Assembly (NCBI RefSeq): GCF_036226405.1
Contig: NZ_CP108464.1
Span: 6,138,001 to 6,202,000 of the forward strand
Length of the DNA: 64,000 nucleotides
From: Streptomyces sp. NBC_01260
GTDB taxonomy: Bacteria; Actinomycetota; Actinomycetes; Streptomycetales; Streptomycetaceae
Direction: 5' to 3'
Shown here: piece after piece, positions 5,084 to 29,199 of the stretch
Layout: each line of letters opens with the position of its first letter
How positions within the stretch are numbered: position 1 is the first letter of the stretch
Notes under the pieces: model-generated
What the model was told of the DNA's origin: nothing
What the model saw: only the letters and a program-made list of their open reading frames with translations
Database searches by the model: none
Made by a program: the position numbers and the translations under genes

Positions 5084-5688
5084 GAGCCCGCCCCCGTCTG
5101 CTCGGGCGCGGGGTTGGCCAGCACGCGGTGGTTGGGCCGCGTGGGGCTCGTCGTACAGGCCGCGAAGGGCCCGTCGGGGGCGCGCAGATGCGCCAGCGTC
5201 TGGTCGAGGTGGTCGCGGTGCCAGGTCGACGGGCCGGACAGTCCGGCCTCCGTGTCGGTGAACTGCTGCCAGGCGAGCCAGAGCGCGTGGAGCCGGGCAA
5301 CGGCCTCCGGGTGCTTGTGCCACTGCGCGCACCACGGACGATTCGTACTGATCTCCCGGCCGTAGATCGGGAGGAAGAGGTAGTTCACCCAGTCGCTGAG
5401 GGCGGCGAGTTCGGTGGCGTACGTCTCGCCGCCCAGGGCGACGATGAACACCGAGGTGGGGCCGTCGGCCTGCTCGGGGCCGGCCGCCCCGGCTGCCGGA
5501 GCGCCGTCCGCCTGCTGGTCGGCTGCGGGTAGGGGAACGGGTTCGGAGCCGAGGCGGTCCAGGGCGACGCCGTGCTGCCTGACCTCGGCGATGGTCTTGG
5601 CGAGGGTGCTGGCGAGGTCGTCGAGGTTTTCGTCGGGGAGGCGGAACAGCTCGGGGCCGGGGGTGGTGGTCGGGCTGGTGTCGGACAT
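5080..5688 (-). CDS. DUF4913 domain protein
   Basis: A 202-aa protein whose core (about residues 80-165) has the DUF4913 signature seen on Streptomyces mobile elements: 'SDWVNYLFLPIYGREISTN', 'PWCAQWHKHPEAVARLHAL' and 'WLAWQQF'. The function of this family is unknown; it is nearly always encoded with ICE replication and transfer genes. I prefer the ATG at 5688, which has GGAG 9 nt upstream, over the ATG at 5703. The stop overlaps the next GTG. No tag or tail is present. Confidence 0.8.
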   Translation of the reverse strand: MSDTSPTTTPGPELFRLPDENLDDLASTLAKTIAEVRQHGVALDRLGSEPVPLPAADQQADGAPAAGAAGPEQADGPTSVFIVALGGETYATELAALSDWVNYLFLPIYGREISTNRPWCAQWHKHPEAVARLHALWLAWQQFTDTEAGLSGPSTWHRDHLDQTLAHLRAPDGPFAACTTSPTRPNHRVLANPAPEQTGAGS

Positions 5689-5781
5689 GAGGGCGTGCTC
5701 CATCTGTGAGACGGCGACATGCCCGAGAGGATCCGGAGAAACAGCGGTTTGGTCCCGCCGGGAAGATCCGGTAGTGGGGCG

Positions 5782-6979
5782 CTACCTGCCTGCGCAGCGA
5801 GGGCAGCGCGGGAAGGGCGGTGCCAGCAACTGCAGGGCCCGAGCCGCCTGTTGCGGGACGACGCCGTTGCCGAGCGCGGTGAGCTGCGCCGGCCGCCCGA
5901 GTCCCGGGGTGGCGGTGACCCAGCCCGGGGCGAGGCCCTGCATCCACTCGACGAAAGCGGGACGGAGCCGCCCGGCCGCGTCGGTGGGCTCGGGCGCGGG
6001 ACGGGTGGACCTCTCCCATCGGGTGATGGCGGCTGCGTACGGCCCCCATCGCCGGTCCGCTCCTCGGCCTCCGATGATTCCTCCGTCCAGAGCGGCAGGA
6101 CCACTGCCGACAAGGGAGGCCGCCACTCCTTCCCCGGGCGGCGGCCCGGGGTGCCCGTGTCGCTGGCCCTGGGCGTGGGCAACAGCGACGCCGCCGCACT
6201 GGGCAGGGTCATGTCGCCATTGCCGTGCCGTTGATTCGGCGAGCCCTTGGTCCCGTCCGACGCCTTCGGGGTCGGCAGGAGCCACTCGACCTCGTCGGCC
6301 AGATTCGGGCCGTGGCCCCCGCTCTTCCTCTTGGAAGGGTGTTGCGAGCCGCCGTTCTTGCCGATGTTGCTGGTCGGGGTCTTGAGCAGGGTGTCCGGTG
6401 GGCCAGGCTGTGAGGAAGGTGCGCTCGCGACGGTGCGGGGCCTCGATGTCGGAGGCGCGAAGCACGAGCCACTTCGCGTCGTACCCGAGGTCGGCCAGGG
6501 ATCCGAGTACGGCACCGAGTGCCCGCAGAGGAGGCTGGCCTGGGGTGTCTCCCAGACACCGCGGGCAGGGTTCCACGTCGCCAGGGGAACCGGCGGGGGA
6601 GGTGAGGAGGCCGCGAACATTTTCGATCACTACCAGGCGAGGTCGGAGGGCTTCGACCGCACGGGCGACGTGCAGCCACAGCCCGGAGCGGGTCTGGGCG
6701 TTGAGTCCGGCCCGGCGGCCGGCGACCGAGACGTCTTTGACAGGGGAAGCCCGCCGTCAAGACGCACACCCGGGGGACAGCGGACCAGTCGACGGTGGTG
6801 ATGTCGCCCAGGTTGGGGACGCCGGGCCAGTGGCGGGCCAGGATGCGCGAAGCGTTCGGGTCGACCTCGGCGTGCCAGGCCAGCGTGCCGCCGAAGACGG
6901 ACTGCACCCCCAGGTCGAGCCCGCCGTACCCGGAACAGAGCGAGCCGATCAGCGGAGGGCGCATGACGTGAGTGGGCAT
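5782..6979 (-). pseudogene. DNA (cytosine-5) methyltransferase, broken by three frameshifts
   Basis: The start is 'MPTHVMRPPLIGSLCSGYGG' (ATG 6979, 1 bp after the upstream stop). Motif I (GSLCSGYGGLDLG) and motif IV (TAGFPCQ) are in the first frame. At the A-triplet 6736-6738 the frame shifts and the sequence continues 'DVSVAGRRAGLNAQTRSGLW', then motif VI 'IENVRG' and motif VIII 'HRRERTFL'. Near 6393-6415 it shifts again into 'DTLLKTPTSNIG...LLPTPKASDGTKGSPNQRHG', the repeat-rich region typical of phage/ICE C5 enzymes. At the C5 run near 6043-6047 it shifts back to 'RWGPYAAAITRWER', 'FVEWMQGL' and 'LTALGNGVVPQQA' (motif X). The ancestral enzyme would be about 395 aa and would protect the element from host restriction. 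All catalytic motifs survive, so the damage is recent or artefactual. Confidence 0.8.
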
Positions 6980-6980
6980 G

Positions 6981-7556
6981 TCACCGGCTCCGTCGGACCA
7001 CGCCCGCAGGAACTGCTGCCGTCTGAGCAGCGGGAGGCGGTGCCGCGGCAGAAGGGGCAGCCGCAGACCGGCTGAGAGCAGCCCGGAGCCGCACGGACGG
7101 AGGCGAAACGGTCGCCGACGCGGCACGAAGCGAGTCGGTGGCTTCACGCAGCGCCGTATCCGCCGTGCTGAGCGAGTCATCGATCACCTGCACAGCGGTC
7201 TCCCGCGCATCGTCGGCGCCGGGCTCATCGCGCAGGTGCTCGGTCCGGTCCAGGAAGGAGAGCTGGTGGGCGACCTCGCCGAGGGCGGATGCCGCCTGAC
7301 CGGTGGGCCGCACCGTGGTAGCGAAGCCGGTGATGACCCTGGCGGTGTGGGCCTCGGGCTCCTGGGAGGCGCTGAAGCGCACCTCGTTGCCCAGGTCGGT
7401 GATCAGCTCACCGAGTGCCGAGATATGCCTGGCGACGTCGGCCACGTTGGGCGAGCGACGAGGATCTCCGAGAACGGGGAGCTTGCGACGCTGAGCGTCG
7501 AGGGCCGACGCCGTGGCGCGCATGGCACGGATGTCAGAGCTGGGGGTGCTGTTCAT
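6981..7556 (-). CDS. hypothetical helical ICE protein
   Basis: A 191-aa protein, mostly helical ('ALGELITDLGNEVRFSASQ', 'STADTALREATDSLRAA') with a low-complexity Ala/Pro tail bearing the 'RLRAALSRSAAAP' tag. It lies directly upstream of the methyltransferase pseudogene (1-bp gap) and 39 bp downstream of the DnaB-N gene. No family is recognised. Confidence 0.65.
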   Translation of the reverse strand: MNSTPSSDIRAMRATASALDAQRRKLPVLGDPRRSPNVADVARHISALGELITDLGNEVRFSASQEPEAHTARVITGFATTVRPTGQAASALGEVAHQLSFLDRTEHLRDEPGADDARETAVQVIDDSLSTADTALREATDSLRAASATVSPPSVRLRAALSRSAAAPSAAAPPPAAQTAAVPAGVVRRSR

Positions 7557-8765: not shown

Positions 8766-8992
8766 CGCACACCCCCTGCGCCGGAGCCGGAGGGGGTGTT
8801 CTGCCGGGCATGGAGGTCGGCGACCGCTTGGTCGGCAGCGGCTACCGCCGTGGCGAAGTCGTCCAGCGTGCTGGTGAATGCGGGATCGGTGGCGAGTATC
8901 GACCCGGCCCCGCTGACCAGCCACCACTGGCCGTCACGCAGCACGACCGGCGAGCGCGGCAGCCGCCCGGGACGCAGGGTGGGCGCGCTCAT
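8762..8992 (-). CDS. small hypothetical protein
   Basis: A 76-aa protein. A short beta-hairpin-like stretch ('PVVLRDGQWWLVSGAGSILA') is followed by one amphipathic helix ('FATAVAAADQAVADLHARQ'). It is translationally coupled at both ends, between the coupling protein and the DnaB-N gene. Its tight placement argues that it is expressed. Function unknown. Confidence 0.65.
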   Translation of the reverse strand: MSAPTLRPGRLPRSPVVLRDGQWWLVSGAGSILATDPAFTSTLDDFATAVAAADQAVADLHARQNTPSGSGAGGVR

Positions 8993-10777
8993 GCCGACAG
9001 CCCGAAGTCGTCGTGGCCGATGGTCTTCGCGAGGGCCCGTTCGGTGATCGCCTTCGTGGCGCGGGCCGAGGCCGGACCGACCACCTTGGCAAAGGGCTCC
9101 TTGTACCAGGGCTTGAGGTTGAGCATGGCGACCCGGATGCCGGTGGCCAGCAGCAGCACCTTGTTCTTGGGCAGGGCGCGGATCGCGTCGGGCGGCAGGA
9201 TGCGTTCGGTGCGCATGCTCACCGAGGTGGACTTGCCGCTCTCGCTGGTGGAGACCGAGGTGGTCTGGACGTCGTGGTCACCGACCTGCCTGCTGAGACG
9301 GTCGGCGAAGTCCGCGTCGTCGATGCCCGATCCGATGATCTTGACGGTGGCGGCGGAGTACAGGGCGTCCATGCCGGCCTCGCCCCAGCACCGCTGGCCC
9401 TGTCGGTAGGACTGCAGGATCGTCATGGGGATGACGCCCCGGCTGCCCAGGTGGCTGTACAGGTCCGGGAGATCCGAGATGCGGCACACGTTCGCGGCCT
9501 CGTCGAGGACGCACAGGGCGGGCGGGTCGAGCCGCCCGCCGGAGCGCTCGGCGACGATCACGGCCGCGCGCATCACGGCGTCGGCCGCCGCCGCGATGAT
9601 CGCGCTCGCGCTGCCGCCGCCGTCCTTGCTCAGCAGATACAGGGTGTCGCGGGAGGTGGCGAAGGCGAACGGCTGGAACTCGGGGAGGCCCTCGTTCGGG
9701 GTGACCCAGGCGGCGACATCGGGGTCGAGCAGGCAGCTCGCGTACTGCCGCGCCGTCTCGTAGATGCCGTCGCGGGTCTCGGTCGCACCGGAGACGGTGC
9801 CCTGGAGCTGGGCGGCGACCGCGTCGTGGCCGGCATCGGTGAGCAGGTCCACCGGGGTGCGGTCGGCCGGCATGGCGAGCCAGGCCAGGACGTCGGTGAT
9901 CGGCCGTCGGTGGCTGGCGGCGGCAAGGAACAGGGCGCCGAGGGTGTTGCTGGCGGCGGTGGACCAGAAGTCGGAGCCGCTGGACTCGTCCACACTCGCG
10001 GTGACGAAGTGCCCAGCCAGACGTTTCGCACCGGCCAGGTCGCGGGCGTCGGCCAGGATGTCCCACCACATCTCGCGCGGCTGGTGGGCGATCTGCTGGG
10101 GGTCGAGGGTCCAGATGGTGCCGACCTCGGCGCGGGCGTCCACTGTCGCGGTGAAGGCGTCGTTCGCGGCCTTGTTACTGGTCAGCAGGACCGGACCAGG
10201 GGCCGAGAGGATCGCGGGTATCGCGAGCCCGGAGGTCTTCCCGCTTCGGGGAGCCATGATCGCGACGATCACGTCCTCCCATGACGCGCGGACCTCCGCA
10301 CGACCGGGGTCGAGGGTGCCGAGCAGGATGCCGCGGTCAGCCGGAGCGACCTCTTTTCCCCTCCCGGCCGCCCAGGGACGGCCGCAGGCTCTTCGCCTTC
10401 GCGGTGATCTCCTTCTCCAGCAGCGGCGCCAGGTCGGCCTTGCGGGCGAGACTCGACTTGGAGCCGGCACGCCAGCGCATCCACAGCACCACGCCGGTGG
10501 TGGCCAGGGCCAGGGTGAGCAGGCCGGGCACGACGCGGGCGCCGACCAGCAGCGCGACGGTGCTCAGGGCCGGCCACAGCACCTCGGGGTGCAGCAGCGC
10601 GTCGGTGGCGTGGAACGGGGCCCAGGGCCCGGCGCCGAAGAAGGAATTACTGATGTTGCCGGTCAGCCAAGTCAGCGAGCCGAAGGCAAGCGCGATGCCG
10701 AGCAGACCGAAGAGGAGGTAGAGAAGAGCGTCCGAACTGGTGGTGGTCGAGGGTGCGCTGGTGCGGGGTGCAAGCAT
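8989..10777 (-). pseudogene. VirD4/TcpA-type conjugative coupling ATPase, split by a +1 frameshift
   Basis: The N-terminal piece (from ATG 10777; an alternative ATG with a good AGGAAG site is at 10846) has two membrane segments ('ALLYLLFGLLGIALAFGSL' and 'LTLALATTGVVLWMRW') and then 'LARKADLAPLLEKEITAKAK'. The frame ends after 'LRPSLGGREGK'. The protein continues one base over with 'EVAPADRGILLGTLDPG', Walker A 'IMAPRSGKTSGLAIPA', Walker B-like 'LCVLDEAANVCRISDLPDLY' and the C-terminal 'ILPPDAIRALPKNKVLLLA'. Dropping one A from the GGGGAAAA tract (10354-10361 on the plus strand) rejoins it to about 595 aa. The role in the family is to bring relaxosome DNA to the type IV channel at the inner membrane. 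If the shift is real the ICE cannot transfer itself; a sequencing error is equally likely. Confidence 0.85.
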
Positions 10778-11424
10778 GGTGAATCCTGGGAGTGAGCGCA
10801 GGTGAGGGATAGAGGGCGGGGCGTGTGCGGCTCTTCTGCTGGTCATCGAGACGCTTCCTGTTCGGGAAGGGAGCTGGCGGCCGCGCTATCGGGGAGCTTG
10901 GGGCGGCTGGGCTCGTTGATGCCTCTACGGATCTGGCGTGCCGGTGGTGGTCGATCACGGCCTCTGCCTTGAAGGGGGAGTAGCGAACGGCAACCCGGTG
11001 CTCGGGCTGGCAGAAAGACGATCCACAGGATCCGCGATTTGGCCTGGCCGGAATCCGCTGGTAAGAGCCCGGGGCAACACCGTTGCGTCAGCTTCGTGAG
11101 CGGCTGTCGGGGCAGTGGTCGAGAACTTCCAAGGGGTGGCAGCAGGCCATAAGCCCAAGGAAGAACCGGCAGAGAGAGCCGTTTGCGGCATCTGGGACGG
11201 ATCGGTTTATACCCAGCCCATCTGGCTTGAGAACATCCCACCGTCACCGCCGCGAGTCCGGTGAAACCCTGTCAACGTGTGTTGTTACTCCCGTAGCATT
11301 CGTCCCAGGTGGGGCGTGCTGTCCGGAGCGGGTGAGCGCACGTAGTGGTCCCTCTGAGTCGGGGAGCGCGTCCGCCCGGTTTCACCGAGGCGTCGGGACG
11401 GTCACGTTCCGGAGGAACGTCGTC
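10778..11424. other. intergenic junction between transfer operon and defence island
   Basis: About 650 bp between divergent genes. Nothing here looks convincingly coding: open frames on both strands have poor codon use and low-complexity translations. The part next to the coupling gene contains a short leader reading 'MTSRRAAHAPPS' in frame with it. The distal part should hold the promoter of the defence operon, and perhaps a promoter for the coupling protein, which is cut off from its upstream operon by the island. Confidence 0.5.
11270..11299 (+). promoter_or_regulatory. possible promoter of the GHKL-ATPase operon
   Basis: TGTCAA (11270-11275) and TAGCAT (11294-11299) are separated by 18 bp and lie about 125 bp upstream of the first defence gene. 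They resemble -35 and -10 boxes only loosely and were picked by eye; treat this as a weak candidate. Confidence 0.25.
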
Positions 11425-12927
11425 TTGGGGAAGCAGAGCCGGGCACACATGAAGTACGACATCGCCGCCCCCGAACCTGCCGGAATGGTGGCCTCGCTCA
11501 GCTCTCTGGGTTACTCGTTGCCGGCCGCCGTAGCCGACCTTGTGGACAACAGCATCGCGGTCGAGGCCCGGACCATCGACGTGGAGTTCACCTGGGCCGG
11601 AGCCGACTCGTGGATGGCGGTGGTCGACGATGGCTGGGGCATGACCGTCAAGGAACTTGTCACCGCCATGACGGTGGCCGCCCGCGGTCCCGCGACTCCA
11701 CGGTCAGCCACCGATCTGGGTCGGTTCGGCGTCGGCCTCAAGTCCGCCTCGTTCTCCCAGGCCAGACAGCTCACCGTGAGTTCGTCCAAAGCCGGCGGAC
11801 AGTGGCACACGCGAACCTGGGACCTGGACGTCGTCGAACAGTCCGGACAGTGGCGGCTGCTCCACGGCGCGGACACCGACACCGCTGTCGTGCTGGACCG
11901 GCTCCGCAGGGATGCCGACCACGGCACGATCGTCCTCTGGCGGAGGCTCAACGGATACCACGCCGCCGACGTCAGCACCGGTGACGAGCGAACCCAGAGA
12001 CAGTTCTACGCCGAGGCGGCGCGCACCGAGTCGCACCTCGGTATGGTCTTCGCCCGGTTCCTCACCGGTGCCCGGCGTCGTGACCTGAGGATCCGAGGCA
12101 ACGCGGTGAGACCGTGGGACCCCTTCCTGCGTCACCACCCGTCGGTGCAACCCCTCCAGCCGGAGGAACTCCCACTGAGCGGCGGTCTGGTGAGGGTCGA
12201 GGCGTTCATCCTCCCAGGTGCCCACCGCCTCACTTCGGAGGAGTACGACCAGGCTGCCGGCCCTGAAGGGTGGCTTGATCAGCAGGGCTTCTACGTGTAT
12301 CGACGTAACCGACTGATCCTGGCCGGTGACTGGCTGGGGCAACGTGGGATGCGCCGTGAGGAGAAATACAACCTTGCACGTATCGCCGTCGACATCCCGG
12401 CCGAGACGGACGCCGAGTGGAGCGTCGACGTGAGGAAGTCGAGCGTCGTCCCGCCCGTCGCGCTCCGGACGCATCTCAACCGCATCGCGCGTAAGGCCCG
12501 GGCGACCGCGGCGGACGTGCTCCGGTACCGGGGGCAGGTTGCCGCGCGCACTCACGGCGACCCTCTCTCGTACGCGTGGCTCGTACGCCGCTCCGAGGAC
12601 AAGGTCACCTGCAAGATCAACCGTAGCCACCCACTGGTTCAGGCTGCCATACGGCCGGGTGGAAACAGCAGTACGGACGTGCGCGCCTTGATCCGTCTCC
12701 TCGAGGAGACGATCCCCGTCACCGCGCTGCGGGTGATGCACGAGACCGACAGCAGCGACGATCCGGAACCGTTCGGAGGCCCGGGCCCGGCCGACGACTC
12801 GGCGGTCGAGGTCGCGCAGCGCATCTACGAGTCCCTGGTCACGGGCGGCCGTTCGCCGGCCGCGGCCAAGGAACGTCTTCGGACCATGCCGCCCTTCGAT
12901 CAACTGCAAGGCTTCTGGAGTAGGTGA
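11425..12927 (+). CDS. MORC/MutL-like GHKL ATPase of Mza-type defence system
   Basis: A 500-aa protein with the Bergerat ATP-binding fold. The N-box is 'AVADLVDNSIAVEA' (residues about 36-48, with Asp where many relatives have the catalytic Glu), the G1 box 'DDGWGM' (68-73) and the G2 box 'GRFGVGLKSAS' (99-109). The rest resembles MORC-like/MutL-like bacterial ATPases linked to restriction systems. I prefer the TTG at 11425, which has GGAGGA 8 nt upstream, over the ATG at 11449, which has no clear site. It is the first gene of a plus-strand operon with Z1, DUF4420 and AIPR genes, the combination known as Mza. Its likely role is an ATP-driven DNA clamp that senses or loops foreign DNA. It ends 62 bp before the Z1 gene. 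Confidence 0.85.
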   Translation: MGKQSRAHMKYDIAAPEPAGMVASLSSLGYSLPAAVADLVDNSIAVEARTIDVEFTWAGADSWMAVVDDGWGMTVKELVTAMTVAARGPATPRSATDLGRFGVGLKSASFSQARQLTVSSSKAGGQWHTRTWDLDVVEQSGQWRLLHGADTDTAVVLDRLRRDADHGTIVLWRRLNGYHAADVSTGDERTQRQFYAEAARTESHLGMVFARFLTGARRRDLRIRGNAVRPWDPFLRHHPSVQPLQPEELPLSGGLVRVEAFILPGAHRLTSEEYDQAAGPEGWLDQQGFYVYRRNRLILAGDWLGQRGMRREEKYNLARIAVDIPAETDAEWSVDVRKSSVVPPVALRTHLNRIARKARATAADVLRYRGQVAARTHGDPLSYAWLVRRSEDKVTCKINRSHPLVQAAIRPGGNSSTDVRALIRLLEETIPVTALRVMHETDSSDDPEPFGGPGPADDSAVEVAQRIYESLVTGGRSPAAAKERLRTMPPFDQLQGFWSR

Positions 12928-12989: not shown

Positions 12990-15758
12990 ATGAGCGACTT
13001 TCCCGACGACCCGATGGCCAAGGCCAGGCGCCTGGTTCTCAGTTTCCTGCCCCAGGATCGGCAGCCCAAGTCCGAGGAGATCCACAACGCGGTCAACAGC
13101 ATCTACGGCATGCTGGCTGCGCAGGGTGCGCCCGTTGACCGGGATCAGCTGGTCAAGGAGATCGAGGCCCTGACAGTGGTGTTCCAGGAGCGTTCCCTCG
13201 CCCTCACCGAGCACGAGGGGCACGAACCCTGGCTGCCCGAAGCGAAGAACGATCGAGACTGGGACTTCTGGGAGCGCTACCGCAGGTACCTCGAGGACGT
13301 CGTCAGCCTTCCACCCGGGGTCGTACGTCGGCTGGACCAGAGCTCGGACGACGTACTGAGCCAGCTGGAGGATCCACGCCGTACCGGACCGTGGCGTCGC
13401 AGAGGCCTGGTCATCGGCCAGGTGCAGTCCGGAAAGACCGGGCAGTACATCGGGCTCACGGCGAAGGCGGTGGACGCCGGATACCGTTTTGTCGTGGTGC
13501 TCGCGGGTATCCACAACGACCTCCGAAGCCAGACACAGCTACGGATCGACGAGGGGCTCTTGGGCTTCGACACCCAGAACCAGAGCCGATCGGACGAGAA
13601 CGGGCGGTCTCGCGCCATAGGCGTGGGCAGGATGCCGTTGGTGAAGAAACTCAAAATCGCCTCACCCACCAACAGCGGTGAGAAGGGGGACTTCGGTCTG
13701 GCGACGGCGAAGGCGATCAACTTTCCCCTTGGGGACTTCCCCGTAGTTCTCGTCGTCAAGAAGCACTACAAGATCCTCGAATACGTACGCCAGTGGGTGC
13801 TGGACGTGCACGGCGTCGAGGACGAGAACGGCGCCAAGGTCATCAGCGACCTGCCTCTGTTCGTCATCGACGACGAAGCCGACAACGCCTCCATCAACAC
13901 CGTGCGTGACCCGGAGGCTGACCCGACCAAGACCAACGCGGCCATCCGGAAGCTCATGAAGAGCTTCGACAAGTCGGCCTACGTGGGCTACACGGCCACG
14001 CCGTTCGCCAACATCTACATCGACCCCGAGGCAGACAACTCGGAGGCGGGCGAGGACCTCTTCCCCGCCAGCTTCATCCGCAGCCTGCCGTCCCCGTCGA
14101 ACTACCTCGGTCCCGAGCGGGTTTTCGGACTCCAGGTGGAGGACGAGGACGAGGCCGACGTTCAGGCCCTCCCGCTCGTTCGGCACGTGGACGACAGTGA
14201 CGCCTGGCTCCCCTCCAGTCACAAGTCGGGCGACGCTCCCACCGGAGACCTCCCTGACTCCCTACGTGAAGCGATCCTCTCGTTCGTGCTCACCTGCGCC
14301 GCTCGCCGGGCCCGGGCGCAGACGAAGGTCCACAACTCGATGCTGGTGCACGTAACCCGTTTCACCGCCGTCCAGCACCTGGTGCAGGAGCAGGTGCTGG
14401 ACTACCGGCACCTCATCGAGGACATGATGCGAGATCGCTACGGAAAGGGGCCGCAGATCCGTGAGGAGTTCCGCGCCCTCTGGGAGCGGGACTTCATCCC
14501 CACCACGGGCTGCTTCGAACCCGAGCAGGCCGAGCGCCTGACCTGGGAGCAGGTTTCCGACCAGATCCTTCCGGCTCTTCGGAAGATCCAGGTCAAGACC
14601 GTGAACGGTTCCTCCAAAGACGCACTCGACTACTACGACAACCGCAGGAGCGGCCTTTCGGTGATCGCCATCGGAGGGCAGAAACTCTCCCGAGGTCTCA
14701 CTCTGGAGGGCCTGACGGTCAGCTACTACCTGCGGCCGTCGAAGACGTACGACACGCTGTTGCAGATGGGCCGGTGGTTCGGGTACCGCCCCGGTTACGA
14801 GGACCTGTGCCGCCTCTACACCATGCCGTCCCTCGAGGACGCCTACGTGGAGGTCACGGCCGCCACGGACGAACTACGCAGGGAGGTCGAGGAGATGGCG
14901 ACGCTCGGACTCACTCCGACGCAGTTCGGCCTGAAGGTGCGGTCCTCCTCTCTCAAACTTACCGTGACCGCACGCAACAAGATGCGGAACAGCACGAAGG
15001 TCACACTGAGTTACTCCGGTGAGGGGCCGGAAACCGTGATCTTCAAGCTCGCCAAGAGCACCGTCGAGCACAACTTCCAGGCCCTGGAAACGCTCATTCA
15101 CCGCATGGACGCGATTGCCGAGCCAGTTCCGGCTGAGACGCCGAACGGCAAGGTCAGGTGGAACGGTGTGCCGGCAGAGATCATCTCCGAGTTCCTGAGC
15201 ACCTACGAGACCGACCGTATGGCCCAGCGCGTCCGGCCGAGGCTGATCGCGAAGTACGTGGATCAGTGCACGAAGGTCGGAGAGCTCGGCAGTTGGACGG
15301 TCTGTCTGGTCGGCAGCACGAGGTCAGAGCTGCCACCTCACGAAATCGCCGGGCACACGGTCGGCCTCGTTAAGCGTGGGTCGCTCAACCCCAAGTACAG
15401 GGCCGAGGGCCGTTACACGATCCGCAGGGTACTCAGCCCGCCGGACGAGATGATCGGCCTCGACCCCGACCAGAAGGATGCGGCCCGCAAAGCCGCTGAG
15501 CGGGCGGCGAAGGAGAAAGAGACGCCCAAGACGCCAGCCGGGCCGTACATCCGACGACAGCGGCGCACCGACCAGGGGCTGCTGCTCGTCTACCCCATCG
15601 CGGTGCCGGACGCCTCCGAGGCCGGCCAGCCGACGCCGCTCGTGGGATTCCAGCTGAGCTTTCCGCACTCCGAGTACCAGTCCAAGACCGAGTACGAGGC
15701 CAACTCCGTCTGGCTGCAGGAGGACATCTACACCAAGGACGAGGAGGACGACGCGTGA
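12990..15758 (+). CDS. Z1-domain superfamily 2 helicase-like ATPase
   Basis: A 922-aa protein with a clear ribosome site (GGAGG) 8 nt before ATG. Walker A is 'GQVQSGKTGQYIG' (about 143-155), motif II 'VIDDEADNASIN' (292-303) and motif III-like 'GYTATPFAN' (333-341). The Z1 domain begins near residue 400 and includes 'GGQKLSRGLTLEGLTVSYY' and 'LLQMGRWFGYRPGYEDLCRL' near residues 565-605, the motif VI arginine region. Z1 proteins are found only in restriction-like defence operons, next to MutL/MORC ATPases. It is expected to be the translocase of the complex. The C-terminal 150 residues ('KAAERAAKEKETPKTPAGPY') are charged. Its stop overlaps the next GTG (GTGA). Confidence 0.9.
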   Translation: MSDFPDDPMAKARRLVLSFLPQDRQPKSEEIHNAVNSIYGMLAAQGAPVDRDQLVKEIEALTVVFQERSLALTEHEGHEPWLPEAKNDRDWDFWERYRRYLEDVVSLPPGVVRRLDQSSDDVLSQLEDPRRTGPWRRRGLVIGQVQSGKTGQYIGLTAKAVDAGYRFVVVLAGIHNDLRSQTQLRIDEGLLGFDTQNQSRSDENGRSRAIGVGRMPLVKKLKIASPTNSGEKGDFGLATAKAINFPLGDFPVVLVVKKHYKILEYVRQWVLDVHGVEDENGAKVISDLPLFVIDDEADNASINTVRDPEADPTKTNAAIRKLMKSFDKSAYVGYTATPFANIYIDPEADNSEAGEDLFPASFIRSLPSPSNYLGPERVFGLQVEDEDEADVQALPLVRHVDDSDAWLPSSHKSGDAPTGDLPDSLREAILSFVLTCAARRARAQTKVHNSMLVHVTRFTAVQHLVQEQVLDYRHLIEDMMRDRYGKGPQIREEFRALWERDFIPTTGCFEPEQAERLTWEQVSDQILPALRKIQVKTVNGSSKDALDYYDNRRSGLSVIAIGGQKLSRGLTLEGLTVSYYLRPSKTYDTLLQMGRWFGYRPGYEDLCRLYTMPSLEDAYVEVTAATDELRREVEEMATLGLTPTQFGLKVRSSSLKLTVTARNKMRNSTKVTLSYSGEGPETVIFKLAKSTVEHNFQALETLIHRMDAIAEPVPAETPNGKVRWNGVPAEIISEFLSTYETDRMAQRVRPRLIAKYVDQCTKVGELGSWTVCLVGSTRSELPPHEIAGHTVGLVKRGSLNPKYRAEGRYTIRRVLSPPDEMIGLDPDQKDAARKAAERAAKEKETPKTPAGPYIRRQRRTDQGLLLVYPIAVPDASEAGQPTPLVGFQLSFPHSEYQSKTEYEANSVWLQEDIYTKDEEDDA

Positions 15759-16774
15759 CGATCACCGGGGTCACCGAGGACGAATGGCGGGAGCTGGAGA
15801 GTCCGCAGGACACCCCGGGTCGCTCCAGTATCCGCATGTACCCGGACTCCCCCCTCGACATCTTCCTCTCGGTCGCCCACCCAGGTCGACAGCGCATGCT
15901 GGTACTCCGTACGGACGCGCGTTCCGCGGATCCCGTGGTGCGGTCGGTCGGCCGCCTGCCCCGGGCCGCCGGGATCGAGATGAGCCTGAGCGCGGTGTCC
16001 CGCCTGGAGTACGAGCTGCAGGTGATCCTGACCGAGAAGGCCCTGCGGGAGGTGTTCAACCCGCTGGTGGCCGACGTGGCCGCCACCGCCCAGGCGGCGT
16101 CAGGAGCCGCTGACGCCCTGGGCGCCGCCGTGGCACGCTTCGGCAGGTGGCAGGACCTGTTGCGTGCCGTTGGGACGGACGGCCTCGGTGTCGAGGCACG
16201 GCGCGGGTTGTACGGTGAACTCCTTCTGCTTGGGGACACCCTGATCGCGGAGCTCTCCCAGTCCGAGGCGGTCGACGCCTGGACCGGCCCCGCAGGGGCG
16301 AACCAGGACTTCCAGCTGTCGGGCGTGGCCATCGAGACCAAGGCCAGCACAGCCAAGCGGCCCCGGAACATCGCGATCGCGAGTGAGCGACAGCTGGATG
16401 ACACCGGCACCCCGGCCCTGCTTCTCGCCCTCGCACAGCTGGACGAGCGGCGGGGAGGTTCTGGCGAGAGTCTGAACCGACGCGTCGAGCACATCCGGCA
16501 ACAGCTCACCAACTCCGCAGCTCGTGTCCGGTTCGACGGCCTGCTCATCCAGGCCGGATACCTGCCGGCGCACCGGGACCACTACGACGAGCCCCGGTAC
16601 ACCGTGCGGGACCTGCGCTTCTGGCACGTGCGGGAGGGTTTCCCCAGACTGACCGAGTCCGACCTTCCCGAGGGAGTCGGTGACTGCTCGTACCACGTGA
16701 GTACCTCGGGACTGGACGCCTTCCGTGCCCAGATCGACGAGGTACGTGAGCTGATCGGTGGGACCGATGCCTGA
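15755..16774 (+). CDS. DUF4420 PD-(D/E)xK motif protein (putative nuclease)
   Basis: A 339-aa protein of the PF14390-type family. The signature is 'GLYGELLLLGDTLIAE' (151-166) then 'AWTGPAGANQDFQLSGVAIE' and 'TKAS'. Asp185, Glu194 and Lys196 make the D...ExK active site of PD-(D/E)xK nucleases. It starts with GTG overlapping the Z1 stop and ends 8 bp inside the AIPR gene. In Mza-type systems this subunit is the best candidate for DNA cleavage. No truncation or odd composition is seen. Confidence 0.9.
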   Translation: MTITGVTEDEWRELESPQDTPGRSSIRMYPDSPLDIFLSVAHPGRQRMLVLRTDARSADPVVRSVGRLPRAAGIEMSLSAVSRLEYELQVILTEKALREVFNPLVADVAATAQAASGAADALGAAVARFGRWQDLLRAVGTDGLGVEARRGLYGELLLLGDTLIAELSQSEAVDAWTGPAGANQDFQLSGVAIETKASTAKRPRNIAIASERQLDDTGTPALLLALAQLDERRGGSGESLNRRVEHIRQQLTNSAARVRFDGLLIQAGYLPAHRDHYDEPRYTVRDLRFWHVREGFPRLTESDLPEGVGDCSYHVSTSGLDAFRAQIDEVRELIGGTDA

Positions 16775-18776
16775 GCTGGACCTGGAGGGGTTCTCCCGCA
16801 GCCTGGTCGCCGACGTCCAGGCGACGGCGGACGCCGAGGGGACGACGACCCCCGAGGCGTTCACTCGGCAGGTCTTCGAAGACCTCGAGCAAGCCGGTGT
16901 CGTGTCCAACACCTTCACCGCCTATCACAAGGCGCACGGACATGAGGTCCACGGCTACGGAACCGGGGAGTCGGGCGCGTCCCTGGACCTGTTCGTCACG
17001 GACTTCCATCTGGCACCGCTGGAGAGCAAGCTCACCAAAGCGCAGACCGAGGCGTTCTTCAGACGACTGCTGACCTTCGCGGTCCGGTGCGGTGACGGGC
17101 TGCAGCAGCACATCGACGAGTCGTTCGACGTGTACGACATGTGCGTGGCGGTGGAGAAGTCGCTCACCGAGGTACAGCGGATCAGGCTCTTCCTGCTCAG
17201 CAACCGTGTCGGCACCTTCACCGAGGTACCGGCGTCGGAGCTTGACGGCCTTCCGGTGACCCACGAGGTGTGGGATCTGGCCCGCCTGCACCGCCACGCG
17301 ACGTCGGGCTCGCTCGGTGAGCCCATCGTGGTTCCCTTCCTCCCGCCTCTTCCCTGCGTCTCCGCGCCCTCCTCGGAGGAGGACCACTCCGTTGCTCTGG
17401 CCGTGGTACCCGGGCAGATGCTCGCGGAGCTGTACGCAGAGCACGGCACACGGCTCCTGGAGCTGAACGTCCGTTCCTTCCTCCAGACCCGCGGCTCGGT
17501 CAACAGAGGAATCCGGGAGACCCTCCTGCACGCCCCTGGCCGGTTCCTGGCTTACAACAACGGGATAACCGCGACGGCGTCACAGGTCGACTTCGTGACC
17601 GGCCCGAACGGTGTGCCCACCCACATCTCAGGGATCCACGGTCTGCAGATCGTCAACGGGGGCCAGACGACCGCTTCGCTCCACTACGCGCTCACCCGCG
17701 ACAAGGTCGATCTGTCCGACGTGCGGGTGCAGATGAAGCTGACGGAGGTGGCCCCTGACCGCCTCGCCGAGATCGTTCCGAAGATCTCGGAGTACTCCAA
17801 CACACAGAACCGGGTGACCCAGGTCGACTTCAGCTCCAATCACGACTACCACGTGGAGGTTCAGCGGATCACCCGATCGCTGTGGGCCCCGGTGGCGGGC
17901 GGCAGTGGTCAGGAGACCCACTGGTTCTACGAACGCGCACGTGGCCAGTACACGGACGAGCTGGCCAAGGCCCGGACTCCCGCGCGCCAGCGCCAGTTCA
18001 AGAAGCTCAACCCGACGAGACAGAAGTTCACCAAGGCAGACCTCGCCAAGTTCGTCCACTCCTGGCACCGGCTCCCGTACCTGGTCAGCCGTGGCGCCCA
18101 GAAGAACTTCGTGGAGTTCATGCTGCGCATCGAGGAGGCTCCACCCCGCGTGGACCTCCAGTACTGCCAGAGGGTGATCGCCATGGCGATCCTGTTCAAG
18201 GCAATTGACCGCATCGCCGCGATCCAGGGGGCCGGCAGCCACAAGAGCATGATCACCACTTACACAGCGGCGCGCCTCTCCCTGGCTACGGACCGCCGGA
18301 TCGATCTGGACCGGATCTGGCGCGACCAAGCGATCACTCCCGTCCTGGAGGCCGCCATCCACGACCTGTGCCCTCGGGTCATACGGGCGGTCACGACCCC
18401 CCGGGAGGGGAACCACGTCGGGGAATGGGCCAAGAAAGCGGTCTGCTGGGACGCGGTCTCCACAGTCCGCTGGACGGTGCCACGTGCTCTGTCGGCGGAG
18501 CTGCTCGACAGCCCTCTGGACGAAGCCGCACTCTCCGGGGGTACCGGAACCGAAACGGGAGCAGCCGAGGAGGCGGCGCTGGTTCCGGCCGACGAGTGGT
18601 ACGCGATCGAACGCTGGGCCAAGGAGACACGCGCACTCGAACCGTGGCAGCGTCAGCTGGCACAGTTCGTAGGCAGGCGACTCGAACTGGAACAGGAGAT
18701 CCCCGAGGCTCATGCGGCCCAAGCGATGCACACCCGTACCGAGGCGCTGCGCCTGGGCTTCAATCCCGTCCCGTAG
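16767..18776 (+). CDS. AIPR family (abortive infection phage resistance) protein
   Basis: A 669-aa protein with the conserved AIPR core near residues 250-310: 'GRFLAYNNGITATASQVDF' and 'GLQIVNGGQTTASLHYAL'. Further conserved sequence follows ('ISEYSNTQNRVTQVDFSSN', 'KFTKADLAKFVHSWHRLPYL'). AIPR proteins accompany MORC-like/Z1 operons and also some Abi loci; a nuclease role is suspected but not shown here. The ATG at 16767 lies 8 bp before the stop of the DUF4420 gene, with GGTGG just upstream; a GTG at 16758 is possible. It is the last gene of the four-gene operon, followed at once by a strong hairpin. Confidence 0.9.
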   Translation: MPELDLEGFSRSLVADVQATADAEGTTTPEAFTRQVFEDLEQAGVVSNTFTAYHKAHGHEVHGYGTGESGASLDLFVTDFHLAPLESKLTKAQTEAFFRRLLTFAVRCGDGLQQHIDESFDVYDMCVAVEKSLTEVQRIRLFLLSNRVGTFTEVPASELDGLPVTHEVWDLARLHRHATSGSLGEPIVVPFLPPLPCVSAPSSEEDHSVALAVVPGQMLAELYAEHGTRLLELNVRSFLQTRGSVNRGIRETLLHAPGRFLAYNNGITATASQVDFVTGPNGVPTHISGIHGLQIVNGGQTTASLHYALTRDKVDLSDVRVQMKLTEVAPDRLAEIVPKISEYSNTQNRVTQVDFSSNHDYHVEVQRITRSLWAPVAGGSGQETHWFYERARGQYTDELAKARTPARQRQFKKLNPTRQKFTKADLAKFVHSWHRLPYLVSRGAQKNFVEFMLRIEEAPPRVDLQYCQRVIAMAILFKAIDRIAAIQGAGSHKSMITTYTAARLSLATDRRIDLDRIWRDQAITPVLEAAIHDLCPRVIRAVTTPREGNHVGEWAKKAVCWDAVSTVRWTVPRALSAELLDSPLDEAALSGGTGTETGAAEEAALVPADEWYAIERWAKETRALEPWQRQLAQFVGRRLELEQEIPEAHAAQAMHTRTEALRLGFNPVP

Positions 18777-19069: not shown

Positions 19070-19537
19070 ATGGCCAGAGAGGCTGGAGGACGGTCGACGG
19101 GCCATTGGGTCTCGACCACGAAGAGCGAACACCTTCGCGGTCGACGGACAAGGGACACCGGGCCCGAAGTAACTCTCAGGAAGGCCGTGCACCGGCTGGG
19201 CCTGCGATTCCGTCTTCAGCGCCGGGTCGCGCCACGTTGCACCGCCGACTTCGTGCTCCCTCGGTACCGAGTCGCCGTCTTCGTCGACGGCTGCTACTGG
19301 CACGGCTGTCCGGAGCACTGTCCCGACGAGTTCCGGGGTCCCAACGCCGCGCTGTGGCAGCAGAAGATCGCGGCGAACAGAGAGCGGGACAGGCGTAACA
19401 CTGCAGAAGCCGCCGCAGCCGGTTGGACCGTGGTGCGTGTCTGGGAGTGCGAGATCCGTCGTGACCCCGCCGCCGCCGCTCGACGAGTGATGGCCGCGGC
19501 TCACGAACACCACGGCTCCCTCAAGTTACTCCCTTGA
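19070..19537 (+). CDS. vsr: Vsr-type DNA mismatch endonuclease
   Basis: A 155-aa protein with the very-short-patch repair endonuclease signature: 'RRTRDTGPEVTLRKAVHRLG', then 'TADFVLPRYRVAVFVDGCYW' and 'HGCPEHC', followed by a conserved 'KIAANRERDRRN' helix. Asp60 corresponds to the catalytic Asp of the family; His/Cys residues of 'WHGCPEHC' fit the zinc site. Vsr nicks T:G mismatches produced by deamination of 5-methylcytosine, so it belongs with the C5 methyltransferase at 20283-22217. Start ATG at 19070. It shares a divergent promoter region with the AbrB-like gene. Confidence 0.9.
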   Translation: MAREAGGRSTGHWVSTTKSEHLRGRRTRDTGPEVTLRKAVHRLGLRFRLQRRVAPRCTADFVLPRYRVAVFVDGCYWHGCPEHCPDEFRGPNAALWQQKIAANRERDRRNTAEAAAAGWTVVRVWECEIRRDPAAAARRVMAAAHEHHGSLKLLP

Positions 19538-19644
19538 CAGTGTGCCTCGACAGCGTGTTCTGGAACGCCAGGGTTCCGGACCTCGCCGACCGCCGAATTC
19601 GCCGACGACGCCCGCGCGAGAGCCCCGTCCGACATCATTGCTCC

Positions 19645-20274
19645 ATGGTTCCCGAATTCGACGTGGAGATCCGCCACCGTCACGAACTGAGCGACCTGCT
19701 CAGCGGTCTGACGGCTGCAGACGTGGCCGGCGGATTCACAGAGCACCACGACTACCACTGCCTCGGCCTGCCAAGTTGGGCGGAAGTAGAGGAGTGCCTT
19801 GCCAGGGAAGCCGCGGTCCTTGAGGAGGCGACCTCGTCGGACGCACCTGACGGTGTAGAGGTGTTCCTGGAAGCGATCCTCGAGAGTGACGACCTGGGGT
19901 ACTTCGACCTCATGTGCGTACTGCAAGGAAACGATGTCGGAGTCGCCGGCCTGAGCCTTGCCCTGAGCGCAGCGCGGACAGCTACCTTCTACTCGTGTTC
20001 CGGGGGAGTCGACAACAACCACCACGCCAGCTATCCGATGGTGGGTGTGGTTCCCGACGCACTGCGCGGCGCGCTGATCACCGAACTTGTGAAACTCGCC
20101 CACTGCGGCATTGACCAACAGCGGGGTCGCTGGTATCTGTACGGCCGCTCAGTGACTGCTCTCCACGCCTTGGGACAGGCGATCGTGAAACACCGAAGTG
20201 CCTTCGACGCCATGCCGGACCCAGCGTGGGTCGGCGGCCTCGACGAGGAACTCAAGAGGCTCAACGACTCCTGA
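19645..20274 (+). CDS. unrecognised protein encoded inside the defence island
   Basis: A 209-aa protein from ATG 19645 ('MVPEFDVEIRHRHELSDLLS'). A longer frame from TTG 19534, overlapping the vsr stop, is possible but its extra residues look non-coding. Acidic, mixed alpha/beta, no membrane segments. Notable features are 'HHDYHCLGLPSWAEVEECLA', 'ESDDLGYFDLMCVLQGND' and 'CSGGVDNNHHASYPMVGVV', which are rich in His, Asp and Cys, so a metal site is conceivable. I do not recognise the family. It lies between vsr and the convergent methyltransferase gene with only 8 bp to the latter's stop, so it is an integral part of the cassette. Confidence 0.7.
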   Translation: MVPEFDVEIRHRHELSDLLSGLTAADVAGGFTEHHDYHCLGLPSWAEVEECLAREAAVLEEATSSDAPDGVEVFLEAILESDDLGYFDLMCVLQGNDVGVAGLSLALSAARTATFYSCSGGVDNNHHASYPMVGVVPDALRGALITELVKLAHCGIDQQRGRWYLYGRSVTALHALGQAIVKHRSAFDAMPDPAWVGGLDEELKRLNDS

Positions 20275-20282
20275 CCGAGGAG

Positions 20283-22217
20283 TCACTCCCCTGCGACGGC
20301 CAGCGTCAGCAGATCGTCGGACAGCTCTCCGCGACGGGCACAGTGGGCGACGAGCGGGCAGTCCGAGCAGACGGGTTGAGTGTCCCGGCACAGGTCGCTA
20401 CCGATGAGACGGATCGCTGCCATACGCAGCGGTGCGTCCTTTCCGGCACCCACCAGTTTCACCAGGTTGACACGCCCCTCACTGAGACGGTTCACGTGAC
20501 TGTCGTCGGCTCCGTTCACCCTTGCCGCGACCCGCAGGTTTCCCGTGCCGACGAGCATGAGGTCCTCCCCGATCAGCAGCAGGTACAGGGCCTCTTCGGA
20601 CGGCTTCATGGACAGCTTGGCGGGTACCTTGAGCTTCTGGTCCGCCCGCCAGGCGTTCGGCTTGTCGACCAGTGGCAGCAGACGGTCCACTCGCGCGCGG
20701 GCGGGCTTTGTGGGTGCCGCGTCGATCAGCTTCTCGAACAGTGTCGAAGACAGCGTTCTGGACTTCCTGACCGTCTCCATGATCTCCGCCATGGCCTCCG
20801 GCCTCACCTTGGTGCCGGACAGTACGGCCACGACTGCGGCGTGGAGTGGCACGGGCTCCTCGCTCGGGAGCTGGAACCAGTTCCCGCCGGCGCGTCGTCG
20901 CTCCGCCCAGTCGGTGAGCTCCTGCCGGACCTCTCGCCATCTGGGCTGGAGGCCGGGGGTGTCGTCAGAACCCTCCACGGGCTTCAGTACCTCTGCGGCA
21001 GCCTCGCCCAGCAGCGGCGGTACGGCGTTACCGATCTGCCGAAACGCGTCACTCCGTGTACCTGCGAACCGGAAACGGTCCGGGAAGGTCTGTACGCGCG
21101 CGGCCTCGCGCACGGTCAGGGTCCGCAACTGCTCCGGATGGATGTACCAGTAGCCGTCCTTGGCGATGTGCGCCGTGATGGTTCGGCTGAGTTCGTTCCA
21201 GGCCAGCTTCTTGTACTTGTCGGTGTACTTGTCCGGGCTGTACCGCTGGTACTGCTTCTCGTCGTCGCCCAGCTTTTCCTGCAGTTCGGAGTACTTTGTG
21301 GAGGAGTCCATTACCTGGAAGATCCGGTGGTCGTCCGAACGGACCCGTCGGGTCATGTGGTCCCAGATGACACCGCGTGTCGCTCCCTTCCGCATCTCCT
21401 CCGCGAACTCCGAGATCCCGCGGGGCTTGCGGTACGTGAGCTTGCGCTGCCCGACTCGCTCGGTGGCGACGACCTCCAGCTCCGGGAGGTCCCCGATCGC
21501 GTCACGCAGCGTGGTGCGCTGCGGGTCTGGCTCGCGCCAGGTGAAGTCGTCGACATCCCGTCTGGCCAGGAGAATGAGGCGCTTCCGGTGCTGCGGGACT
21601 CCGTAGTTCCACGCGTCGACGAGCCGCACCTGGGTCGCGTAACCGAGCTCCTCGAGCTCCTCCTCGATCGTGCGGATCACGAAGAAGTCGTCGTGAAGCC
21701 CCATGTCGGGAACGTTCTCCATGAGAACCACCCGCGGCCTGATCCGCTTGACCATGTCCAGATAGGCGCTCCACAGCTCCTTCCGGCGGTCCTCCGGGTC
21801 CCGGCCGTGGTTCTTCACGAGGTCACGGATCTTGTTGCGCCCAGCTCTGCTGAAGGGCTGACACGGGGGGCCTCCCGCTACGAGGTCGATGTCTGCAGGC
21901 GCCAGGATCGCCTCCAGCCTGTCCCGCTCCTCGGGGTCACCAAGATCTATGCGCAGGCTCAGGCCCGGGAAGTTCGCTCTGTGGGTCTCGAGTGCACGCT
22001 CGTCGGCGTCCACGGCGGCAGCCGTAGTCCACCCGGCCCGCTCGACTCCGGCGCTCAGCCCGCCGGCACCGGAGAAGAGGTCGACCGCAAGGCGTTTCCC
22101 CTTACCAAAGCCCACCAGCCAGTCCTGGAAGGACTCCGTGGTGCAGCTGTGAGGGTGAGACGGCAGCTCAAGGCGGTCACTGCGTTCGAGAGGTACGCCA
22201 TAGTGCCCCTGACTCAC
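20283..22217 (-). CDS. C5-cytosine methyltransferase fused to a HhH-GPD/Fe-S-like domain
   Basis: A 644-aa protein from GTG 22217, chosen for GGAGG 7 nt upstream; the usual C5 enzyme is about 400 aa. Motifs: I 'DLFSGAGGLSAG' (46-57), IV 'GGPPCQPFS' (115-123, catalytic Cys119), VI 'ENVPD' (166-170), VIII 'QHRKRL' (208-213), then 'LTVREAARVQTFPDRF' and motif X 'RQIGNAVPPLLGEA' near 390-405. The extension (about 420-644) contains 'GADDSHVNRLS', like the Asp-bearing 'VDTHVxR' of endonuclease III relatives. It ends with Cys610-x6-Cys617-x2-Cys620-x5-Cys626, exactly the [4Fe-4S] loop spacing of Nth/MutY/DEMETER-type glycosylases. It is expected to methylate the island's target site; the extra domain may recognise or excise modified or mismatched bases. 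Confidence 0.85.
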   Translation of the reverse strand: MSQGHYGVPLERSDRLELPSHPHSCTTESFQDWLVGFGKGKRLAVDLFSGAGGLSAGVERAGWTTAAAVDADERALETHRANFPGLSLRIDLGDPEERDRLEAILAPADIDLVAGGPPCQPFSRAGRNKIRDLVKNHGRDPEDRRKELWSAYLDMVKRIRPRVVLMENVPDMGLHDDFFVIRTIEEELEELGYATQVRLVDAWNYGVPQHRKRLILLARRDVDDFTWREPDPQRTTLRDAIGDLPELEVVATERVGQRKLTYRKPRGISEFAEEMRKGATRGVIWDHMTRRVRSDDHRIFQVMDSSTKYSELQEKLGDDEKQYQRYSPDKYTDKYKKLAWNELSRTITAHIAKDGYWYIHPEQLRTLTVREAARVQTFPDRFRFAGTRSDAFRQIGNAVPPLLGEAAAEVLKPVEGSDDTPGLQPRWREVRQELTDWAERRRAGGNWFQLPSEEPVPLHAAVVAVLSGTKVRPEAMAEIMETVRKSRTLSSTLFEKLIDAAPTKPARARVDRLLPLVDKPNAWRADQKLKVPAKLSMKPSEEALYLLLIGEDLMLVGTGNLRVAARVNGADDSHVNRLSEGRVNLVKLVGAGKDAPLRMAAIRLIGSDLCRDTQPVCSDCPLVAHCARRGELSDDLLTLAVAGE

Positions 22218-22551
22218 AGCGCAACCTCCGTAATGCATGACATGAACGAGCACCAGGAGAACACAGACGCGCTGGTGGAAGCAAGGTTTTCGGTAGATCG
22301 CCCAACCAGTTCAGCAGAGCTGACCGCCAGCGTCTCCCCAGCGTGAGTCATAGCCTGGTAGGTTCTCCGACCTGCGACTTCGAACCGCTGTTCTGTGTCC
22401 CAAGACGATCGATCATAGTGGAATCCACTGCCATCGCGTGCGTCTCGGGCGAGTGCAATGCGCCAGGTCCCGCCCGGCACCTTGACGAAGAGCTTAGTGG
22501 CCTGGAAACGCCGTTCGAACCAGTGCCTCGCCGTAGCGGGACACCGGACGG
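22218..22551. other. intergenic junction at right end of the defence island
   Basis: 334 bp with lower GC than its neighbours. One frame stays open through it on the minus strand, but its third-position GC is only moderate and I see no motif. It must contain the methyltransferase promoter and the junction with the interrupted transfer operon. No clear direct or inverted repeat matching the left junction (10778-11424) was found by eye. Confidence 0.4.
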
Positions 22552-27732: not shown

Positions 27733-29199
27733 TCAGGCTGCGAGGGCGAGCGGCAGGGCGGCGGCGGTGAACGCCTCGGCCTGCTGCCAGGTCAGCGGCC
27801 GGAGGTCGAGCTGGGCGCCGACGGCGGCGGTCTCCACCACTGCGCAGGCGGTGCGCAGTTCGTCCTCGGAGTCGGCCGAGACGGTCAGCAACCCGGTCAG
27901 GGCGACGTCCGCGTGCCCGGCGATGAGCTGGCGCTCGCGGGACTTGATGTCCTGGTACTCGATCGAGTCGGCCTCGGAGTCGACCTGGCCGCGCCTGGCA
28001 CGCTCGGCGGCATCGGCGATCACGCTGGACTTCTTGCGCTGGACGTCGCGCAGGGCGGCGTCCAGGCCCTTCGGCTCGTAGGACAGCGACAGCGTGCGCC
28101 TCACCCCGCCGGTGAACAGGAGCTGGTGCAGGAAGCCGGCCGACGTCTCGGTGCGCGGCCAGTTCTCCACCCAGTACGTGGCGTGGACCGCGGAGTCGGT
28201 CGCGATGTGGTCCGCCTTCTCGACGACCACGACCGGTCCGGCAGCGGCGGGCTCGACTTCGGGGCGGCCGGTGGTGGACCACCGGTCCAGCGTCGGAAGG
28301 GCCTTGGGGTCGTAGGCGGTGCGCACGACGGCGGCGATTTCGCGGGCGGTGAGCCAGCCGGCCGGGGAGAGTCCGGCGGTCCGCGCGGCCTGGTCGAAGG
28401 TAGAGGTGAGCTGCGCCAAGACACTGAAGGCCCCGGTCAGGCCGCCGCCGGCCTGGTTGATCAGCCGTCGAGCCGCCTTGGCGTCCAGGGACACCGCGAC
28501 GTACGCCTCGTGCGGGGCGGCTGCGGGGCCGGCGCTCTGAATCAGCTCGTTGTAGACCGCTCCGGCCATGGGGGCGCCCGGCCGGCCGTGCTCTTCCCAG
28601 TAGCGGCGCAACGCGTCGCCGGAGTCGGGGACGGTGCGCTCGATCACCTGGATGCGGGCGATCTGCCCGGTGCGGGCGAGCGCGGCCAGCGCGCGGCCCC
28701 ACCCGCCCACGTTGGCCTGCTGGGTGCCCGGGTCGAGCAACGCGTAAGCACGGGAGGAGACCTTGACCACTGCGGTCAGCGTGCCGCTGTGCGGATCGTG
28801 GACGGCACCGTACCGGCCGTCGGGAGCGGTGACCACGCGCAGACTGGCAGCGGTGCCGGGCAGGTGAAGCAGCCCTTCGGGGGTAGGCCGGCGGGAAGGC
28901 CGGGTGAGCCAGAGGAGCTGGCCGCGCATCCGGCGCAGGGCGTACTGGCCGACGATCGGAGCCCAGTCAGCCAGGGCGCGGCCCCGGTGGCGGACGAAGA
29001 TGAGCAGGGCGACGACGGCCCACAGCGGAATGAGCTGCAGGGCGCCGACCACGCCGCGGGTCAGAATCACGCCGAGAAGGAGCAGGCCGGTGAGGCCGAC
29101 GACGGTCAACTGCGGGACGGTCAAACCGAGCAGAACGCCGCGCCTGCTGCGGTGGGGGAACTTCACGGTGGCTGTAGGGGCTTGGTGCTTGCCGGACAT
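27733..29199 (-). CDS. SCO6880-type conjugation protein (PrgI-like / VirB4 N-terminal-like)
   Basis: A 488-aa protein. Two membrane segments lie near the N-terminus ('LTVVGLTGLLLLGVILTR' and 'LIPLWAVVALLIFVRHRG'), as in VirB3/PrgI-like proteins. A long cytoplasmic part follows, including 'TAVVKVSSRAYALLDPGTQ' and 'LSYEPKGLDAALRDVQRKKS', matching the VirB4 N-terminal region without an ATPase domain. Members of this family are always encoded next to a separate VirB4-like ATPase, as here (25593-27227). GGAG lies 5 nt before the ATG at 29199. A 32-codon leader frame overlaps the start. Confidence 0.85.
   Translation of the reverse strand: MSGKHQAPTATVKFPHRSRRGVLLGLTVPQLTVVGLTGLLLLGVILTRGVVGALQLIPLWAVVALLIFVRHRGRALADWAPIVGQYALRRMRGQLLWLTRPSRRPTPEGLLHLPGTAASLRVVTAPDGRYGAVHDPHSGTLTAVVKVSSRAYALLDPGTQQANVGGWGRALAALARTGQIARIQVIERTVPDSGDALRRYWEEHGRPGAPMAGAVYNELIQSAGPAAAPHEAYVAVSLDAKAARRLINQAGGGLTGAFSVLAQLTSTFDQAARTAGLSPAGWLTAREIAAVVRTAYDPKALPTLDRWSTTGRPEVEPAAAGPVVVVEKADHIATDSAVHATYWVENWPRTETSAGFLHQLLFTGGVRRTLSLSYEPKGLDAALRDVQRKKSSVIADAAERARRGQVDSEADSIEYQDIKSRERQLIAGHADVALTGLLTVSADSEDELRTACAVVETAAVGAQLDLRPLTWQQAEAFTAAALPLALAA

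Follow-up and report, generated by a model that had tools for sequence, protein, structure and literature searches.

A C5-cytosine methyltransferase with a predicted pseudo-MutY tail that keeps its iron-sulphur loop in a Streptomyces operon

What does a domain resembling a base-excision glycosylase do at the end of a DNA methyltransferase? The question is raised by a gene at positions 20283 to 22217 of a 64,000-nucleotide stretch of Streptomyces sp. NBC_01260 (here called the window; contig NZ_CP108464.1, positions 6,138,001 to 6,202,000; assembly GCF_036226405.1, 9.28 Mb in three contigs). An earlier sequence-only reading had described the product as a C5 methyltransferase fused to an endonuclease-III-like [4Fe-4S] domain beside a Vsr repair nuclease, possibly guarding its own sites against deamination. 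Our analysis suggests a tail of apparent MutY/MIG descent that has lost the residues of glycosylase chemistry and retained the iron-sulphur loop, and we favour a role in DNA binding only. The features on which the argument rests are the following.

20283..22217, minus strand: C5-cytosine methyltransferase with C-terminal pseudo-MutY domain and iron-sulphur loop, 644 amino acids (translation, PF00145, profiles, fold comparison)
22225..22230, minus strand: CGGAGG, likely ribosome-binding site of the GTG at 22217 (sequence)
20985..22085, minus strand: C5 methyltransferase domain PF00145, residues 45-411, with DLFSGAGG, GPPCQ, ENV, QHRKR and GNAVPP (E=5.5e-62)
20304..20957, minus strand: predicted HhH-GPD domain, MutY/MIG branch, residues ~421-638 (profile with loop, model, fold comparison)
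20586..20615, minus strand: LSMKPSEEAL (535-544), a degenerate LPGVG(K/Y)TA helix-hairpin-helix, glycines and Lys/Tyr lost (alignment)
20547..20549, minus strand: Gly557, at the catalytic Asp position of MutY/Nth (alignments)
20409..20537, minus strand: well conserved stretch, residues 561-603 (LRVAAR ... NRLSEGR ... APLRMAAIR), with invariant Arg and Asn (alignments)
20340..20390, minus strand: iron-sulphur cluster loop C-x6-C-x2-C-x5-C (Cys610, 617, 620, 626; sequence, homologues)

The methyltransferase and the descent of its tail

The longest minus-strand frame begins at GTG 22253 (656 amino acids); the start used here, GTG 22217, is preceded by CGGAGG with seven bases between. With this start, the residue numbers given earlier for the four Cys and for DDSHVNRLS (from 571) are exact. 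No strand had been given, and a plus-strand translation of the same positions was meaningless and was rejected. The identity of the methyltransferase stands: the PF00145 match covers model positions 4-322 of 324 (residues 57-423 in the 656-residue frame), the domain being complete, and motifs I, IV (PCQ), VI (ENV), VIII and X were all found, their residues invariant or nearly so in a 21-protein alignment. As had been noted, about 230 residues continue past this domain.

Descent of the tail from the MutY/MIG branch appears from both profile and model. A profile of 22 diverse tails, loop included, matched solved MutY structures (1.8e-13) and the T:G glycosylase MIG (1kea; 3e-12), both alignments running along the whole domain, and ranks 1-33 in a fold comparison of the predicted tail were all MutY. 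MutY (TIGR01084; PDB 7ef9, 1rrq, 1mun) thus heads both lists, and shares with the tail an N-terminal L..W helix and the C-x6-C-x2-C-x5-C loop. Predicted fold, descent and four-Cys loop all place the domain in the HhH-GPD superfamily, MutY/Nth class; the earlier "endonuclease-III-like" holds for the Nth/MutY loop and the predicted fold, while MutY/MIG-like is the better name. The two findings that would have spoken against the earlier reading, a fold of another kind and homologues that lack the four Cys, were both absent. In a tree, the tails cluster together and separately from both MutY and Nth (support 99/96), which is consistent with a single fusion. The full-length model of 644 residues (predicted template modelling score 0.83; mean predicted local distance difference test 67.8-82.6 across five differing models) hints that the tail is held at a defined place relative to the methyltransferase.

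Several observations weigh against this assignment. Scanned by itself, the window tail had no Pfam match and only a weak MutY match (E=0.011), behind phosphomethylpyrimidine kinase (0.0076) in a phmmer search of the PDB. Once the loop was removed the profile match became marginal, with a probability of 0.5 for MutY and 0.1 for Nth in an HH comparison; the loop-less profile placed TAL repeats at ranks 1-29 and MIG at 0.006, and among its 15 rows with a passing stretch, MIG, Nth or MutY took the first 13 places and syntaxin the other two.

TAL-effector repeats had also taken ranks 1-4 with the first tail profile (best 7e-8, over endonuclease III at 0.00026), and were judged spurious because none has a single passing stretch. 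With the 22-tail profile one TAL entry was left (2.7e-7), under 16 MutY/MIG rows and over the E. coli MutY core entries.

Residues kept and residues lost

The Cys pattern is not a chance occurrence; it occurs once in 85,153 residues (window open frames of at least 80 amino acids) and in none of 200,000 shuffled versions of the tail. A Streptomyces search matched 28 of 295 genomes, and after removal of one near-copy and weak partial matches the exact pattern and the methyltransferase were found together in 23/23 genus homologues, the window protein included. A genome collection scanned with two family peptide patterns yielded 98 stretches and, from these, 61 confirmed loci, all in genera that we take to be actinomycetes; the two patterns are narrow, and relatives may exist outside these genera. 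Streptomyces is the genus name on 36 of the 61 named relatives, including the closest to the tail (97%). The exact pattern is present in 59 of 60 intact frames of named loci, the exception, L084, having x7 instead of x6; among 69 distinct tails all have the four Cys and 68 the exact spacing. When the methyltransferase part alone served as query, it hit seven places, spread over 6 of the 396 genomes searched in the phylum; one is the window's, two had been found before and four are new and divergent, and the tail was present in 7/7. The 22-tail profile returned the same seven places in these genomes, then eight others from 5.8e-16 down, of which the four inspected were MutY-like proteins lacking a methyltransferase.

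Selection appears to retain the tail: the ratio of nonsynonymous to synonymous substitution rates (dN/dS) in ten complete pairs, not all independent, was 0.05-0.13 in the methyltransferase. In the tail it was 0.05-0.33 over the N-terminal half and 0-0.20 over the C-terminal half, loop included. The N-terminal half evolved faster than the methyltransferase in 8/10 pairs. The invariant tail residues R562, R566, N576 and R582 lie in the Arg-rich C-terminal half.

Two loci show variation in the tail. L163:2599-3072 (plus strand) carries a shortened tail of 158 amino acids, with most of the N-terminal half gone and the loop and an LRVASR stretch kept, possibly a minimal working unit. A Planotetraspora locus encodes two divergent fused tails that belong to separate branches of the tail tree (L077:10013-10717, plus strand, and 13624-14385, minus strand).

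The residues of catalysis have a different history. When the tails were aligned together with MutY and Nth from actinobacteria, the catalytic Asp (VDTH/VDTN) was present in 11/11 MutY, 10/10 Nth and 0/22 diverse tails; across the 69 distinct tails its position holds Gly in 43, Ser in 16, Thr in 4, Asn in 3 and Ala, Gln or Arg in one each, never Asp. Asn is found at the MutY Asn146 position in 0/69 tails, and the Nth Lys or MutY/MIG Tyr at the active-site position in 0/22, in agreement with the earlier remark that the Lys of a bifunctional glycosylase is not obvious. The MutY Glu (Glu43 of G. stearothermophilus MutY) is absent in the window and kept in three of the 22 tails (L160, L162 and the second L077 copy), all in the branch nearest MutY/Nth. 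The hairpin LPGVG is likewise degenerate, its first Gly kept in 4/22 tails and its second in 1/22 (this second Gly in only 6/10 among Nth rows). Stepwise decay is suggested, since some old residues (the Glu, a hairpin Gly) persist in those tails that lie closest to MutY in the tree. According to passages of PMC12871665, MutY catalysis depends on Glu43 and Asp144. Judged by its residues, the tail is a predicted pseudo-glycosylase. Unlike MutY, the window tail has no catalytic Asp, Glu, Tyr or Asn, has lost the hairpin glycines and is fused to a C5 methyltransferase; the Mig.Mth T:G mismatch glycosylase (PDB 1kea), unlike the tail, is a separate active enzyme with its catalytic Asp kept.

The operon around the fusion

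The gene converges on a plus-strand operon, identified by library scans except where another basis is given.

11083..12927, plus strand: MORC/MutL-like GHKL ATPase (MzaB-like), true start possibly inside the frame
12990..15758, plus strand: operon frame
15755..16774, plus strand: PD-(D/E)XK protein DUF4420 (MzaD-like)
16758..18776, plus strand: AIPR protein (MzaE-like)
19070..19537, plus strand: Vsr very-short-patch repair endonuclease (TIGR00632, 108.8 bits against a cut-off of 97.85)
19534..20274, plus strand: 246-residue protein, four-base overlap with Vsr, convergent with the methyltransferase (open frame)

The earlier picture of one polypeptide joining methyltransferase and predicted HhH-GPD domain beside a Vsr gene is thus borne out. 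The 246-residue protein had no match in Pfam, NCBIfam or PADLOC, and similar sequence occurs in 5/61 related loci. Homologues of MzaB, C, D and E all fell under their NCBIfam cut-offs (414.8/850, 732.7/1500, 158.5/420 and 384.3/1050), and MzaA was not matched in the seven window proteins scanned; the operon is taken as MZA-like and not as a member of mzaABCDE. The description of the MZA system used for comparison names no additional domain on its methyltransferase. DrmA/DrmB likewise had no match in those seven proteins. DrmA and DrmB are present in related, DISARM-like loci which, compared with DISARM with DrmMII (PADLOC), add MORC-sigma and mostly AIPR. A MORC-type ATPase in 58/58 and AIPR in 56/58 loci in operons are common to both operon kinds, the MORC match in L076 coming from the MORC-sigma fusion query only. 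Vsr was found in 44/61 loci and not in the other 17, including 7/9 DISARM-like ones.

Operons of this type are already known, as are MutY/MIG and methylases associated with MORC. Passages of Iyer et al. 2008 (PMC2292703) describe MORC/paraMORC restriction-modification operons which likewise hold a GHKL ATPase, DNA methylases, Vsr and AIPR; the main text of that paper mentions neither HhH nor glycosylase. A limited search of open-licence PMC text found no methyltransferase-HhH-GPD fusion.

L079:3661-6957 (plus strand) encodes a 1098-residue protein that combines sigma-70 regions with an MzaB-like ATPase part and so resembles an MzaA-MzaB fusion, and a similar protein is present in the DISARM-like operons of L071, L080-L082, L089 and L090. 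In the window, a second C5 methyltransferase is apparently split over two overlapping frames at 5385-7180 (minus strand), with motif I- and IV-like stretches seen by eye in frame 6209-7180 and the ENV part in frame 5782-6630 (PF00145, E=2e-7). The operon is flanked by a TraG/TraD-type coupling protein (8989-10470) and an EccE-like protein (27733-29199), both on the minus strand, and G+C is 0.65-0.68 over ~10-24 kb and 0.70-0.73 in the adjoining 1-10 kb and 24-30 kb; the defence cassette may therefore sit within a conjugative element. Two tRNA-Ser(cga) genes (53576-53669 and 54024-54117, minus strand; 448 bases start to start) are perhaps a duplicated integration site.

What the tail may do

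Since the cutting residues are lost and the iron-sulphur site is kept, the tail probably holds or reads DNA and does not repair it, and the reading we favour from the residues is that it would bind DNA only, without repair chemistry. The cluster loop and the Arg-rich C-terminal half with its four invariant residues would suit a DNA grip. In active relatives, oxidation of the cluster is reported to make DNA binding two to three orders of magnitude stronger, though with exceptions (passages of PMC9266487). We take the tail's job to be part of self-DNA marking because it follows the methyltransferase, not Vsr or any one effector.

A protein-docking platform that links MORC, AIPR or Vsr to the methyltransferase, and thereby couples modification and restriction physically, is a possible though improbable alternative. 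The near-constant MORC and AIPR partners would suit it, as would the fast N-terminal half, since partner-matching surfaces may evolve in this way; however, Agrobacterium, R. etli and Hymenobacter operons with the same partners lack the tail, and constraint is strongest in the Arg-rich half that carries the loop, which nucleic acid fits at least equally.

We regard as unlikely a tail that reads the state of the DNA, by flipping or sensing 5-methylcytosine, hemimethylated sites, T:G mismatches or lesions, and steers methylation or Vsr to match. Members of the MutY/MIG branch recognise mispairs including T:G, and Vsr accompanies most loci. Mag2, an inactive ("silent") HhH glycosylase homologue, is a precedent for a dead glycosylase that still binds damaged DNA; it sculpts DNA at abasic sites (PDB 4b21-4b23). 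Against such a reader, the base pocket has probably been remodelled, because the window protein has none of the active-site Asp, Asn, Tyr and Glu, and the tail also occurs in the 17 loci where no Vsr was found. A distinctly unlikely form of this idea is a reader in cis, in which the MutY/MIG fold without its chemistry senses methylation or mismatch state, or DNA integrity by cluster redox, and controls the methyltransferase in such a way that the self mark would go to intact host DNA only. If so, two families of anti-phage systems would use a bacterial, iron-sulphur parallel to the reader-plus-writer logic of UHRF1 and DNMT1.

An active glycosylase (T:G, U:G or 5-methylcytosine) guarding the methyltransferase's own sites, for which the MutY/MIG homology, the intact Cys and the nearby Vsr gene speak, is very improbable given the absence of the catalytic Asp from all tails and of Lys/Tyr from all 22, and the dependence of MutY on Asp144 and Glu43; the base-excision activity first envisaged is not supported, and own-site guarding is weakened because the domain persists in loci without detected Vsr. 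A functionless vestige, as the lost catalytic residues and the shortened L163 tail might imply, is hardly credible beside four Cys in 69/69 tails, a low dN/dS in the C-terminal half and a tail in all seven places found by the methyltransferase alone.

On the favoured reading of DNA binding without repair, MZA-like and DISARM-like defence operons share an unexpected part, a methyltransferase with a dead repair-domain tail that keeps its iron-sulphur site. The role of the MutY-type loop has competing answers, structural or redox sensing (passages of PMC9266487), and the family provides a natural test of that role once catalysis is lost. Should the tail govern the place or timing of self-marking, it would bear on how these operons spare their own chromosome.
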